Of a stretch of 64,000 bases of DNA, positions 43,218 to 46,178 are shown one piece after another. Within the stretch, counting starts at the first letter, position 1. Each line of letters begins with the position of its first letter. The stretch comes from Parabacteroides sp. (lineage in GTDB: Bacteria; Bacteroidota; Bacteroidia; Bacteroidales; Tannerellaceae). A program made the translations under genes and the position numbers. The stretch lies in NCBI GenBank assembly GCA_017937385.1, contig JAGBDR010000009.1, forward strand, positions 43,721 through 107,720, in the 5' to 3' direction. Below the pieces are notes generated by a model, which saw nothing but the letters and a program-made list of their open reading frames with translations, did not search any database and was not told the DNA's origin.

Positions 43218-43907
43218 ATGAATGAAAATCGCTCTAAACGAATATCACAAAAAATCAAATGCCGAGAAACTCAAGTCAATGGCCTCTTGGAAAAAGCTGA
43301 AACTTTCGCACGAAGAGTGCTTGAATCAATTCAAGCGCTTGCGGGAACAACGGCTTGCAAGGGAGTCCAAATTGCAAGGTTGAAAGAGTGGGCCATTGAT
43401 AATGGTTGTTGGGTTGATTCGATAAATGAACTTGGAACTTTTGTGGACCGGGGTTCCGAGAATGAAGTTTATATGTCAAAAATAGATAACAAACTTGTGT
43501 ATAAACTGAATGATTTTCGTTATTCGGATGATAATCTTTCTCCCTTTTTCTTTCGATTGAAAGCTCAACAAATATTATTCCCGGATTGTAGCTATACGTT
43601 CATGGGCTTCTCTATAAACAGGAATGGGAAAATATGTGCGTTATTAACTCAGCAGTATGTCATTTCAGAACGTGAAGCTACAGAAGATGAAATTCATAAT
43701 GAATTTTTAAAACTCGGCTTTCATCCGGAAATGAATGGAGAATATTATACGAATGGAAAGTATGATATATTCGATGCATCTCCCAATAACGTACTCGTGG
43801 GGATAGATGGCAATCTATACTTTATTGACACGATAATTTATAAGTCGAATGAAGTAAATCTATCTGTTTATAAAAGCCAATCTCCTAAGTATTCAACTAA
43901 CGGATAA
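43218..43907 (+). CDS. polyvalent-protein-type kinase domain protein
   Basis: A 229-residue protein resembling the protein-kinase-like domain found in phage and conjugative-element polyvalent proteins (Kinase-PolyVal). The motifs are a nucleotide-loop-like RGSENEVY (78-85), a Lys in YKLND (95-99) and a catalytic-loop-like DASPNNVL (186-193, with Asp186 and Asn191). The metal-binding-like Asp204 in YFIDT completes the set. Such domains usually sit in mobile elements; here the gene stands alone beside an AT-rich acyltransferase gene. The target is unknown. A terminator follows it directly. Confidence 0.65.
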   Translation: MNENRSKRISQKIKCRETQVNGLLEKAETFARRVLESIQALAGTTACKGVQIARLKEWAIDNGCWVDSINELGTFVDRGSENEVYMSKIDNKLVYKLNDFRYSDDNLSPFFFRLKAQQILFPDCSYTFMGFSINRNGKICALLTQQYVISEREATEDEIHNEFLKLGFHPEMNGEYYTNGKYDIFDASPNNVLVGIDGNLYFIDTIIYKSNEVNLSVYKSQSPKYSTNG

Positions 43908-43928
43908 ATCTTAATTGGAATATAAATC

Positions 43929-43968
43929 AACTCCCCGAACTGGAGATTTCCCGGTCCGGGGAGTTTTA
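43929..43968 (+). terminator. terminator after the kinase-like gene
   Basis: AACTCCCCG (43929-43937) pairs with CGGGGAGTT (43957-43965), followed by TTTATTTTTG. Confidence 0.85.
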
Positions 43969-44006
43969 TTTTTGTTTGCCTCTCTTTAGTGTTAAGAAAA
44001 AATCCA

Positions 44007-44014
44007 TATCTTTG
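44007..44014 (+). promoter_or_regulatory. -7 box TATCTTTG for the leader RNA
   Basis: Part of the 19-base block shared with the kinase-gene promoter; predicted transcript start is near 44020. Confidence 0.6.
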
Positions 44015-44019
44015 TTCCG

Positions 44020-44303
44020 TTCTCACGCCGATTATTGAGGGGTGGGAGCAGACATATATTTGAAAGGCGTTTATTGACGTCTTGTCTTCTACGTTCCAAA
44101 CTTCGCAACTTTGACACAAGAGGAGACAGGGCAGCGGTAGATGTCTGCGTAGGTTGTATCGTAATGTTTCATGTGCTCAGAAAAGCGCATGGATTAGTTG
44201 CATACATATCGGCGTGGGCTTCAACGTTGCTTATCCTCTTGTGTAGGCAATGCGAAGGCCTGGGACGTGGGATAAGTGGCAGACGAATCCCGCGCTTTTT
44301 TTT
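44020..44303 (+). ncRNA. candidate structured RNA leader/attenuator
   Basis: Nested helices seen by eye are: CTCACGCCGAT 44022-44032 with ATCGGCGTGGG 44208-44218 (one wobble); GCAGACAT 44048-44055 with ATGTCTGC 44141-44148; and TGTCTTCT 44083-44090 with AGGAGACA 44121-44128. The 3' end has a terminator, CGTGGGAT 44266-44273 with ATCCCGCG 44287-44294, then eight Ts. Competing with it, CTTATCC 44230-44236 pairs with GGATAAG 44270-44276. An alternative 11-bp pairing joins 44114-44124 to 44234-44244. I recognise no named RNA family. Confidence 0.55.
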
Positions 44304-44365
44304 GTTTATGCTGGTTTATGAAAGTGGAAGAACATAATTATTAACCTTTTAATAGTATAAATCAG

Positions 44366-45142
44366 ATGAGTACAAAAAGTATTTTTCTTTCGTGTTTGTG
44401 CCTTTGGGTTACCTATTTTGCACAAGCGCAAGTGCCTCAACTTATCAGTTATCAGGCGGTAGCAAGAGACTTGACAGGAAAAGTCCTGTCTGAAAAAGCA
44501 ATCTCCGTGCAGGTGGAAATTTTACAGGGAAGCAATTCCGGTTCGGCGGCTTATGCAGAATCACACGCATTGACCACCACCAAGACAGGAACTATCAACC
44601 TTTTGATTGGTGGTGGTGATGCAATCAATGGTACCTTTACCAATATTGATTGGGGTAATGGTCCGTATTTCATGAAGCTGAGTATGAAACAGGACGGGGA
44701 AACGGAATATAAGGAAGTATCAAATACTCAAATGATTTCAGTCCCCTATGCGTTGTATGCGGAAAAGGCCGGAACGGTTGTGAATGGAGGAAATAGCGGC
44801 AATTCTGAAAATATGCCTAAGTTTACATTTGTTGTATCGGACATAAATAATACAGAAGATGATCTTTATTGTATACTTTCCGGAAATTTGAGTGGGTCTA
44901 CCTCTATTTCTTTGGAATTTACAATCGTATATTTGGATGGGCAAGATCAAGAGTTAATGGTTTCTATTGATGGATTATCGGATGATGATCCGAAGATTGG
45001 CCAGTCAAGTTGTGCCGGTCGTATGTTTTATCTGCGTTATGAAGATGTTCCTGACGGAGATTACAAATTAGTTGTAAGTGACAAGGATGGAAATGTTGTA
45101 AAAGAATATCCTTTTACATTTAAAGCGCAGAAAGACTCATAA
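44366..45142 (+). CDS. secreted protein of unknown function
   Basis: A 258-residue exported protein with signal peptide (IFLSCLCLWVTYFAQA before QVPQL). The N-terminal domain (ISYQAVARDLTGKVLSEKAI, TTKTGTINLLIGGGDAI, ISVPYALYAEKA) is of a type common at the start of Bacteroidota surface and cell-wall-attached proteins. The C-terminal part (about residues 150-258) looks like a beta-sandwich of unknown type. It is followed after 4 bases by the sorting-domain gene, so the two are a unit behind the structured leader. Confidence 0.7.
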   Translation: MSTKSIFLSCLCLWVTYFAQAQVPQLISYQAVARDLTGKVLSEKAISVQVEILQGSNSGSAAYAESHALTTTKTGTINLLIGGGDAINGTFTNIDWGNGPYFMKLSMKQDGETEYKEVSNTQMISVPYALYAEKAGTVVNGGNSGNSENMPKFTFVVSDINNTEDDLYCILSGNLSGSTSISLEFTIVYLDGQDQELMVSIDGLSDDDPKIGQSSCAGRMFYLRYEDVPDGDYKLVVSDKDGNVVKEYPFTFKAQKDS

Positions 45143-45146
45143 TGTT

Positions 45147-46178
45147 ATGCTTATGAAACAATATTTATCCTTATTCATATTATCAGCCTTTCTATTTGGC
45201 ACATTCCCTCTCTCCGCCCAAACCCTTGACGGCTCTTTCTCCTGCCAAAGGGAAGAGTTGGTCGGGACAGGTGATATTACGGTGACGGCTATTGCCGGGC
45301 AATCGTTTGAGGGGACGAAAGACGGTTCGCCTTTGTCGTATGGCTTTATTGAATCGGTTTCTACCGCTAATGAGTTTACGAATATAACGGCGTTTGTACT
45401 GTCGCAACAGGAAGCGGCGTTGGAAGTTGGGGAACAATTGGAATTGTCGGTGGCATTCTCACCGGAAGAGGTGGATAACGCCTCGGTCGTGTGGTCATCT
45501 TCTGATCCGGAAGTGGCAACGGTGCAGGATGGTGTGGTTTCTGTATTGGAAGCCGGCGAGGCAACGATTTGTGCGGTTTCGGCTTGTGGGGTTTATGCGG
45601 ACCAGTGTGTGATTACTGTAACAAAATCCGAGCCGGATCCGGAACCTGAACCGGAGCCCGAGCCCGAGCCTGAACCCGAACCGGAGCCTGAACCAATCCT
45701 TGTTACCGGAGTTTCCTTAGAGCCGGAAGAGGCCACGTTGGAGATTGGCGAAACGCTTGAATTGGAAGCAACCGTCCTGCCACGAGATGCGGATGACAAA
45801 CGGGTGGAATGAGATTCTTCGGATGAACTTGTTGCTACGGTGCGCGATGGAGTTGTGACGGCGATAGGAACCGGAACCGCTACAATCCGTGTCGCAACGG
45901 TCGATGGCGGATATGAAGCGACCTGTACGGTCACGGTCACAGAAGATCCGACTTCGATTGAGGAGGTGGCCGACGGTAACCGGATTTCCTTTGTGGACGG
46001 CTTTTTATATTTGGAATTGCAGAAGCCGCAAACGGTATCTGTCTGGAATGTGAACGGACAAATCTGTACCCTTATTGAAGGGCAACCCGGATTGAATGTC
46101 CGCTCCTTGCAAACATATCCGGCCGGTGTCTATTTTGTCCGGACAGAAAGCCGGGTAGTCAAGATAGTCAAACGGTAA
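45147..46178 (+). pseudogene. BIG2-repeat surface protein with T9SS sorting domain, broken by in-frame TGA
   Basis: A single frame of 343 codons interrupted by TGA at 45810-45812. It has a signal peptide (ending FPLSA) and a first Ig-like BIG2 domain with VVWSSSDPEVATV. An acidic (Glu-Pro)n linker encoded at about 45630-45695 follows. The second BIG2 domain carries the stop exactly where the first copy has Trp (VVW vs RVE-stop, then DSSDELVATV). After the stop the same frame continues through the rest of the domain to a type IX secretion C-terminal domain (YPAGVYFVRTESRVVKIVKR). A TGG to TGA change explains it. The truncated product would lose its sorting signal. Confidence 0.85.
45630..45695 (+). 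repeat. Glu-Pro coding hexanucleotide repeat
   Basis: About ten GARCCN-type hexamers encode an alternating Glu-Pro linker. Such tracts can change length by slippage. Confidence 0.8.

Follow-up and report, generated by a model that had tools for sequence, protein, structure and literature searches.

Attenuators of the trp type follow a pairing logic of 1:2, 2:3 and 3:4 among four leader strands. The leader RNA analysed here resembles them in having four strands with alternative pairings, with a 3:4 stem followed by a U tract. It differs from them in having no conserved leader peptide, in carrying extra loop-loop helices and in preceding diverse genes. In the copy control of pT181 and in the RNAI/RNAII system of ColE1, kissing loops nucleate pairing, and the loop sequence sets identity and prevents cross-talk. 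Our leader shares with these antisense attenuators both the kissing loops and the use of loop sequence as identity; unlike them, it carries both loops on one RNA, is multi-copy and has no plasmid match. Antitoxin RNA paralogues of the Sib type have variable target-recognition segments that pair in trans with a separate mRNA. Paralogues of the leader are likewise told apart by short hypervariable pairing segments, whereas both halves of the code lie within one leader.

Among the small RNAs of Bacteroides, FopS and GibS are multi-copy paralogues with canonical promoters, and FopS combines a single-stranded 5' stretch with a terminator hairpin and binds susC-type mRNAs (PMC11697453). The leader is similar in being multi-copy and paralogous and in having a Bacteroidales promoter box. 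It differs from FopS, as described there, in its length of ~280 nt, its two-hairpin or rod fold and its fixed position upstream of genes. Identity with FopS was considered and rejected, as a folded leader of ~280 nt with no Rfam match does not fit the layout of single-stranded seed plus terminator given in PMC11697453. Structured RNAs of Bacteroidetes also include Bacteroidales-1, Bacteroid-trp, 6S-flavo and other motifs (PMC2864571). The leader differs in having no gathering-score match in Rfam 15, either in the window or at the leaders of 30 further loci.

Here we describe the family to which the leader belongs, its helices and their compensatory changes, its orientation and spacing relative to the next gene, and its private loop codes. 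The leader is probably a cis-acting RNA, about 280 nt long up to the terminator, with a bistable fold that would control read-through into the next gene.

The locus and its relatives

The window, the whole stretch of 64,000 nucleotides of Parabacteroides sp. DNA that was analysed, contains the leader region at 44007-44303. The promoter box, about 280 nt of helices, the eight-T terminator and a gene start 62 nt further on, all pointed out in an earlier note on this DNA, were confirmed in the sequence (Table 1). Transcription would start near 44020, judging from the promoter box. The first downstream protein scored 36.7 bits against NF053851, under that model's cut-off of 60. Its neighbour has a Big_2 domain in the piece before the in-frame stop and a T9SS sorting domain in the piece after it, and the split may reflect a pseudogene, a sequencing error or read-through. 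The description of the leader as standing before a secreted-protein pair thus holds here, with the second gene broken by a stop, and is not general in the family. The upstream gene (43218-43975, 229 aa) has no NCBIfam match and is followed by a terminator-like hairpin with a T-rich stretch (about 43930-43975). The window contains no tRNA or tmRNA.

Table 1. Coordinates of the leader and the genes downstream of it (window positions)
Feature	Position	Strand	Partner, content or basis
Promoter box TATCTTTG (TAnnTTTG type)	44007-44014	+	sequence
5' hairpin	44023-44045	+	predicted fold; alternative partner 44208-44218, putative antiterminator
Strand a	44066-44089	+	pairs with b (local hairpin H1) or d (rod)
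x1, private code	44091-44098	+	pairs with 44261-44268
Mini-hairpin 1, CAAA-CUUCGCAAC-UUUG	44097-44113	+	y1 (44101-44107) in its loop
w1, private code	44114-44124	+	pairs with 44234-44244
Strand b	44122-44149	+	pairs with a (H1) or c (rod)
Central hairpin, sequence variable	44168-44193	+	10/10 pairs with changes on both sides (alignment A2)
Strand c (c1 44212-44218, c2 44227-44236)	44212-44236	+	pairs with d (as 5' arm of H2) or b
w2	44234-44244	+	covariation, swap tests, alignment A2
Mini-hairpin 2, AGGC-AAUGCGAAG-GCCU	44245-44261	+	y2 (44251-44257) in its loop, complementary to y1
x2	44261-44268	+	covariation, swap tests, alignment A2
Small terminator stem (44266-44273 with 44287-44294)	44266-44295	+	8 bp
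3' arm d1	44289-44295	+	within terminator region; c1 a further partner
U8 tract (T8)	44296-44303	+	sequence
First downstream gene, secreted-type protein, 258 aa	44366-45142	+	N-terminus resembles NF053851
Second gene of the pair, two in-frame pieces	45147-46178	+	TGA 45810-45812 between the pieces

The leader belongs to an apparently undescribed RNA family of gut Bacteroidales. None of the 4227 models of Rfam 15 gave a gathering-score match in the window, in line with the earlier note, which had recognised no named family; at E values up to 10, region 43900-44450 had five matches, all weak and unrelated. The leaders of 30 further loci (20 + 10) also had no match above gathering score. A TPP riboswitch exceeded that score at L037 (1546-1638), away from the leader of that locus. 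In the open-licence PMC literature, judged mostly by listings, we recognised no description of this family. The region is not conserved as coding: in each of the 23 other rows of alignment A2, a stop codon interrupts the frame of 100 codons at 44035-44337. A leader-peptide attenuator was also considered and rejected. Within the stretch examined, an ATG frame of at least 8 codons was present in only 38 of 84 copies and no short ORF was conserved; 23 of the 84 had ATGs at -10 to -1 of the GGCGTTTAC anchor, yet these opened frames of 1 to 80 codons in differing registers.

BLAST detected homologous DNA in 24 of 59 genomes when the window's own is counted, and in 23 of the 58 others; there were up to nine matching pieces in a genome, some of which are parts of one site. 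A degenerate pattern on the most conserved part, whose positions are therefore conserved by construction in all loci collected with it, matched at least 118 stretches in the set genome_contigs; the matches listed include Prevotella, Paraprevotella, Bacteroides, Phocaeicola, Parabacteroides, Alistipes and Muribaculaceae, with the strains Paraprevotella clara YIT 11840, Phocaeicola massiliensis DSM 17679 and Parabacteroides distasonis NM39_I3 among them. Six matches (L060, L072, L081, L092, L142 and L145) lie in bins labelled Firmicutes, Clostridia, Lachnospiraceae, Clostridiales or Eubacteriales, and are probably on mis-binned Bacteroidales contigs. A covariance model of the leader's 3' half (R1) matched 76 of 393 Bacteroidales genomes and, among 345 genomes drawn across the phylum, the window's own genome only; both counts come from scans under stricter filters that scored few candidates in each genome. 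On fuller scoring, 12 genomes picked for having R1 matches had 6 to 11 each, of which at least two in the set were the second strand of a site. The window's own genome had 3 strong and 8 weaker R1 matches. The many matches to a further model, R2, outside the genus (~38-57 bits among those listed) were not counted as family members. The pattern had no match on plasmids and one exact match among viral contigs (L153, IMGVR_UViG_3300021319_000137), perhaps a mis-called host segment; this copy precedes genes for an EF-Tu-like GTPase and an Hsp70-like protein. Phages gave one partial match, in an unannotated 4.3-kb record.

The orientation of the leader and its spacing to the next gene are cis-like. 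In the set of 144 pattern copies, the nearest downstream gene was co-oriented with the leader in 117 of 124 cases, compared with 70 to 49 for upstream genes. Of 121 copies with enough sequence, 106 had a co-directional ATG frame of at least 80 aa that began no more than 250 nt after the terminator (median gap 69.5 nt), against 26 of 115 in a control reading away upstream. A promoter box precedes most leaders: in 76 of 105 anchored copies TAnnTTTG lies 40-99 nt before the anchor, most often at 60-79. The stretch from terminator to gene has such a box in only 3 of 106 copies and in 0 of 20 leaders of the type II branch described below. Homologues of the first downstream gene (E 1e-20) occurred in 11 genomes of the genus, and the leader stood upstream of them in seven (G000, G004, G009, G013, G018, G027 and G030), the match in G013 being weak at 31.5 bits. 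The homologues of G016, G029 and G031 sit at the ends of contigs, as does one in G003, which also has a distant homologue with no leader.

These data bear on two readings in which the RNA fold would be incidental. Multiple copies, a long imperfect inverted repeat and several matches that stop at contig ends, as repeats do, are what a mobile palindromic DNA element (MITE-like) or a recombination site carrying a promoter would give, with the fold as a by-product of the inverted repeat. The fixed orientation and distance to the next gene, a layout conserved from promoter through start codon and the company of the same gene in seven genomes of the genus make this very improbable. We give even less credence to an ordinary terminator of the upstream transcript next to an unrelated 5' UTR: a hairpin with a U tract is present, but the upstream gene already has a terminator-like hairpin of its own, and conservation extends over the promoter and the 280 nt of helices as a single unit.

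The genes downstream have no dominant family and no evident common pathway. In a Pfam sample of 108 of 118 first genes, and of 87 of 95 second genes plus that of the window, LRR_5 was found in 5 of 108 and LytTR in 4 of 108 first genes (best 25 of 53 families), and radical SAM in 6 of 88 second genes (best 25 of 78 families). By eye, the downstream genes listed include lipoproteins, sets of phosphatase-, kinase- and tubulin-like genes, and restriction-modification-like genes. Leaders stand before radical SAM enzymes at L059, L063, L068, L072, L103, L110 and L128, several with a short Cys-rich peptide between; by eye these are likely peptide-modification operons. At L171, L173 and L183 the next genes are methyltransferase-, restriction- or helicase-like, and look by eye like defence cargo.

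Pairing and compensatory change

The predicted fold of the leader has an energy of -116.5 kcal/mol compared with -80.9 ± 4.9 for shuffled sequences (z -7.3), and 0 of 200 shuffles were as good. When column pairs of 129 copies were ranked by mutual information, pairs in x, y, w and c:d came out at the top. Covariation was detected in mini-hairpin 1, at 44097-44113 and 44098-44112. Column 44097 covaries both with 44113 and with one column between 44235 and 44273; we take the latter to be its x2 partner, and hence the column to have two exclusive partners.

We used an alignment-free swap test in which RNAduplex energies of two segments from one copy are compared with those of segments exchanged among copies. 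Of the 144 copies, 130 had enough flank and 95 of these were parsed, with 27, 1 and 7 lost to a missing anchor; one locus is present twice in the set (L005 = L044), and the shuffle tests take no account of relatedness. The private helices gave the strongest signals. The native energy of x1:x2 was -9.6 kcal versus -2.6 ± 0.2 for swaps (z -36), and it beat nearest-neighbour chimeras in 92 of 95 copies. For w1:w2 the values were -11.4 versus -4.4 ± 0.2 (z -30) and 93 of 95. The 11-bp pairing that the earlier note had seen between 44114-44124 and 44234-44244 is this helix w, perfect in the window and the second strongest covarying helix. Mini-hairpin 1 reached z -13.5 (95 copies; 68 better and 17 worse than chimeras). 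Among the strands, a2:b2 (-11.6), c2:d2 (-9.4) and d1:e (-9.4) formed a strong group in the 95 copies, followed by a1:b1 (-6.5), c1:d1 (-5.5), b1:c1 (-4.7) and a1:d1 (-4.2), and then by a2:d2 (-3.1) and the nearly invariant b2:c2 (-0.8). Nonsense pairings used as controls gave -2.3 (b1:e), -0.3 and +0.6 to +2.9. Against nearest-neighbour chimeras the local stems were better and worse about equally often (a2:b2 49/45, c2:d2 39/42, c1:d1 46/43; n = 95), and their signal therefore stems from deeper splits.

Alignments agreed with these tests. The c:d hairpin together with mini-hairpin 2 was paired in 97.9% of cells across 60 diverse copies, with 10 pairs changed on both sides, and 0 of 500 shuffles scored as high. 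In alignment A2, 99.5% of cells were paired for a1:b1, 97.9% for a2:b2 and 100% for y1:y2. Pairing in 24 closer copies reached 93.5% of cells for the local state, x and w included, and 90.0% for the rod, against 33-48% in slid controls. The two models have x, w and the central hairpin in common, and most double changes lie there. Outside these parts, the local state has 8 pairs changed on both sides, whereas in a:d and b:c of the rod only 2 of 20 pairs changed in this way, and y adds 2 more. Two local hairpins, terminator stems included, and the helices that join their loops are thus supported by compensatory changes, which are abundant in homologues. In the competing rod the loop helices covary strongly and the outer strands little.

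A nested energy model, covering 93 copies, favoured the rod at equilibrium: c1:d1 formed in 0 of 93 and c2:d2 in 1 of 93. The rod was predicted in 90-92 of 93, b:c was predicted to form in 90 of 93 when only the RNA preceding strand d was present, and a:d2 had at least 4 expected pairs in 64 of 93. In the window the long rod is the predicted equilibrium fold and, when the 3' 50 nt are left out, its b:c part persists. Since the nested model favours the rod, the terminator would have to win kinetically or with help; since the strands specific to the rod are little compensated, the case for the rod as an exclusive second state draws more on conservation and energy. A leader with one stable state and no switch, either two hairpins joined by y, x and w in a kissing complex or the rod only, might act in mRNA stability, protein binding or constitutive partial termination. 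It would fit the small number of compensated rod pairs (2 of 20; b2:c2 z -0.8), x, y and w could form alongside the local hairpins, at least in principle, and the nested model yields the rod in nearly all copies. We consider a single state unlikely, as column 44097 covaries with two exclusive partners, and d1 covaries with c1, with the local stem and with a post-terminator hairpin in mutually exclusive uses.

These uses of the terminator arm extend what the earlier note had described. Its 7-bp pairing of GGATAAG (44270-44276) with CTTATCC (44230-44236) and its small terminator stem of 8 bp are both present, and the stem covaries in relatives (native -10.7 versus swap -9.1 ± 0.15; z -10.7); a small terminator hairpin of -5 kcal or better occurs in 121 of 130 copies, and the U tract is short or broken in some. 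The idea of competing partners for the terminator arm stands, but there are more than two: pairings were found for d1 with c1, in the local stem, in the rod and, in many relatives, with a post-terminator loop. The last of these gave 16.9 against 14.28 ± 0.23 (112 of 135 copies parsed) and can form only after read-through. The hairpin concerned precedes the start codon in many relatives, where it is also part of the leader, and is absent from the window's subfamily. It may be a second level of control, at translation. A loop of the GGGGAACT type lies in the hairpin just before the start codon, for example at L011, L013 and L020, and covaries with the terminator arm. Two further pairings are putative: one that joins the 5' end to 44208-44218, with 11 bp in the window and a weak z of 3.0 against the swap control (77 of 130 parsed), and one of 44051-44060 with a stretch after the terminator, about 3 sd over the swap control (69 of 130 parsed). 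The exclusive uses of the terminator arm in the stem with c1, in the small stem and in the post-terminator hairpin all covary relative to swap controls. The comparisons support a structured leader with competing helices and no named family, from which regulation would follow, as the earlier note had itself put it, by inference.

The terminated RNA of ~280 nt might instead be the product, a trans-acting sRNA that might, for instance, use its private loops to recognise the mRNA or the nascent transcripts of the locus encoding it, in the manner of the antisense RNAs of plasmid copy control. Its own promoter and terminator would suit such a role, as would loops private to the locus, if recognition is locus-specific, and the covarying complementarity between the terminator arm and the hairpin before the start codon. 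However, co-orientation and a short gap with few promoter boxes suggest that the gene depends on read-through, and cis pairing alone explains the covarying pairs. We regard a trans-acting product as doubtful, a shade more so than a single-state leader. The free-standing small RNA that the earlier note had offered as an option is likewise weakened, because only 3 of 106 copies have a promoter box between terminator and gene.

Private loop codes

The weaker R1 matches in the window's own genome represent a second branch, type II, with the same architecture and different sequence, in which the y1/y2 kissing loop itself changes with compensation. Four type II copies of this genome align closely from upstream of the promoter to the gene start, and they differ mainly in the central hairpin and in x, y and w. 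A BLAST query with one of these copies detected nine long copies in its genome: the query itself and others that were 83-88% identical to it along about 430 nt. Of 38 genomes of the genus, 19 had matches to this query. DUF6383 forms the end of the proteins, 1039-1286 aa long, that are encoded by the four downstream genes scanned. At L188, L190, L193 and L194 of this genome, giant DUF6383 genes have a nearly common promoter, leader and signal-peptide start. The bodies of these four genes are unrelated, like those of exchangeable surface-antigen families.

The loop-loop helices are copy-private, which was unexpected. We compared native and crossed loop-loop pairs in three sets of paralogues, each from a single genome, with 9, 8 and 7 copies (24 of 24 parsed). 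Native energies averaged -28.7, -30.2 and -29.2, compared with -12.6, -11.5 and -15.3 for cross pairs, and 0 of 72, 0 of 56 and 0 of 42 cross pairs (0 of 170 in total) were as good as the native pair of either partner. We also took 28 copies from one genome, for which 51 R2 matches had been counted with second-strand and weak ones included. Each loop of these had its own partner as the best one (28 of 28), which none of the cross pairs matched (0 of 756). No two copies within the three paralogue sets have both x and w in common. Exceptions for single helices are L160 and L268 of the window's genome, which have the same x, two copies in genome G026 likewise, and the type I copies L156 and L157 of the window's genome, whose w appears by eye to be common.

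Within genomes, identity was 0.87-0.92 in the promoter stretch and 0.88-0.95 in b and c, 0.74-0.77 past the second loop and 0.57-0.74 in the central hairpin, and only 0.29-0.48 in 7-mers of x and w (compared gaplessly, with one x2 mis-cut). Strands a-d barely change, and x, y, w and the central hairpin change faster than the promoter, b and c. We infer that fast loops on slow strands are the signature of a switch with two halves that locate one another through loops specific to the copy. Insulation of the copies from one another may be the purpose for which the codes were selected; compensatory drift alone could also scatter them if the flanks are under a constraint not seen here.

A riboswitch or attenuator that binds a metabolite or a protein, with the y1/y2 core (CAAACUUCGCAACUUUG facing GGGCAAUGCGAAGGCCU) as its sensor, would account for the conserved core between free helices in type I and for the attenuator-like geometry. 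Unlike an aptamer, though, the y loops of the diverged branch change with compensation; the search pattern itself fixes some of the core, and the downstream genes have no evident common pathway. Ligand sensing by this core therefore seems to us improbable, much as a single-state leader does.

Discussion

We propose that RNA polymerase, starting from the leader's own promoter, would make strands a, b, c and d in turn, each of strands a-d having two possible partners and changing little. In the putative off state, a:b and c:d would be paired, and the c:d stem with the U tract would stop transcription; in the window's branch, the small stem 44266-44273/44287-44294 may serve as an alternative terminator before the U tract. 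In the putative on state, the rod of b:c and a:d would remove the terminator arms and the gene would be transcribed. The apical loops y1/y2 and the helices x and w would join the two halves, acting as nucleation site and lock, and the copy-specific x, y and w would prevent cross-pairing among the many similar leaders in a genome. Sequence comparison is the basis on which we predict termination, a working role for the rod and the direction of the switch.

More tentatively, a Bacteroidales genome might hold up to tens of such self-recognising bistable attenuators, each insulated by a private three-part x/y/w code that changes much faster than the surrounding promoter and strands under selection against cross-pairing, so that individual surface-protein (DUF6383-type) or accessory genes are switched independently, possibly with locus-specific RNA feedback in trans; we put this forward as a possibility distinctly below the cis-acting switch in likelihood.

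If this reading is right, gut Bacteroidales have a widespread RNA switch, unnamed in Rfam and present in many copies per genome, which precedes surface, lipoprotein, peptide-modification and defence-like genes. It would make it simple to test how many RNA switches of a similar kind can exist side by side without cross-talk, with orthogonal loop-loop codes apparently made by nature, and would yield a set of natural orthogonal RNA parts. It would also give a handle on the control of the giant DUF6383 surface proteins in relatives of Parabacteroides.
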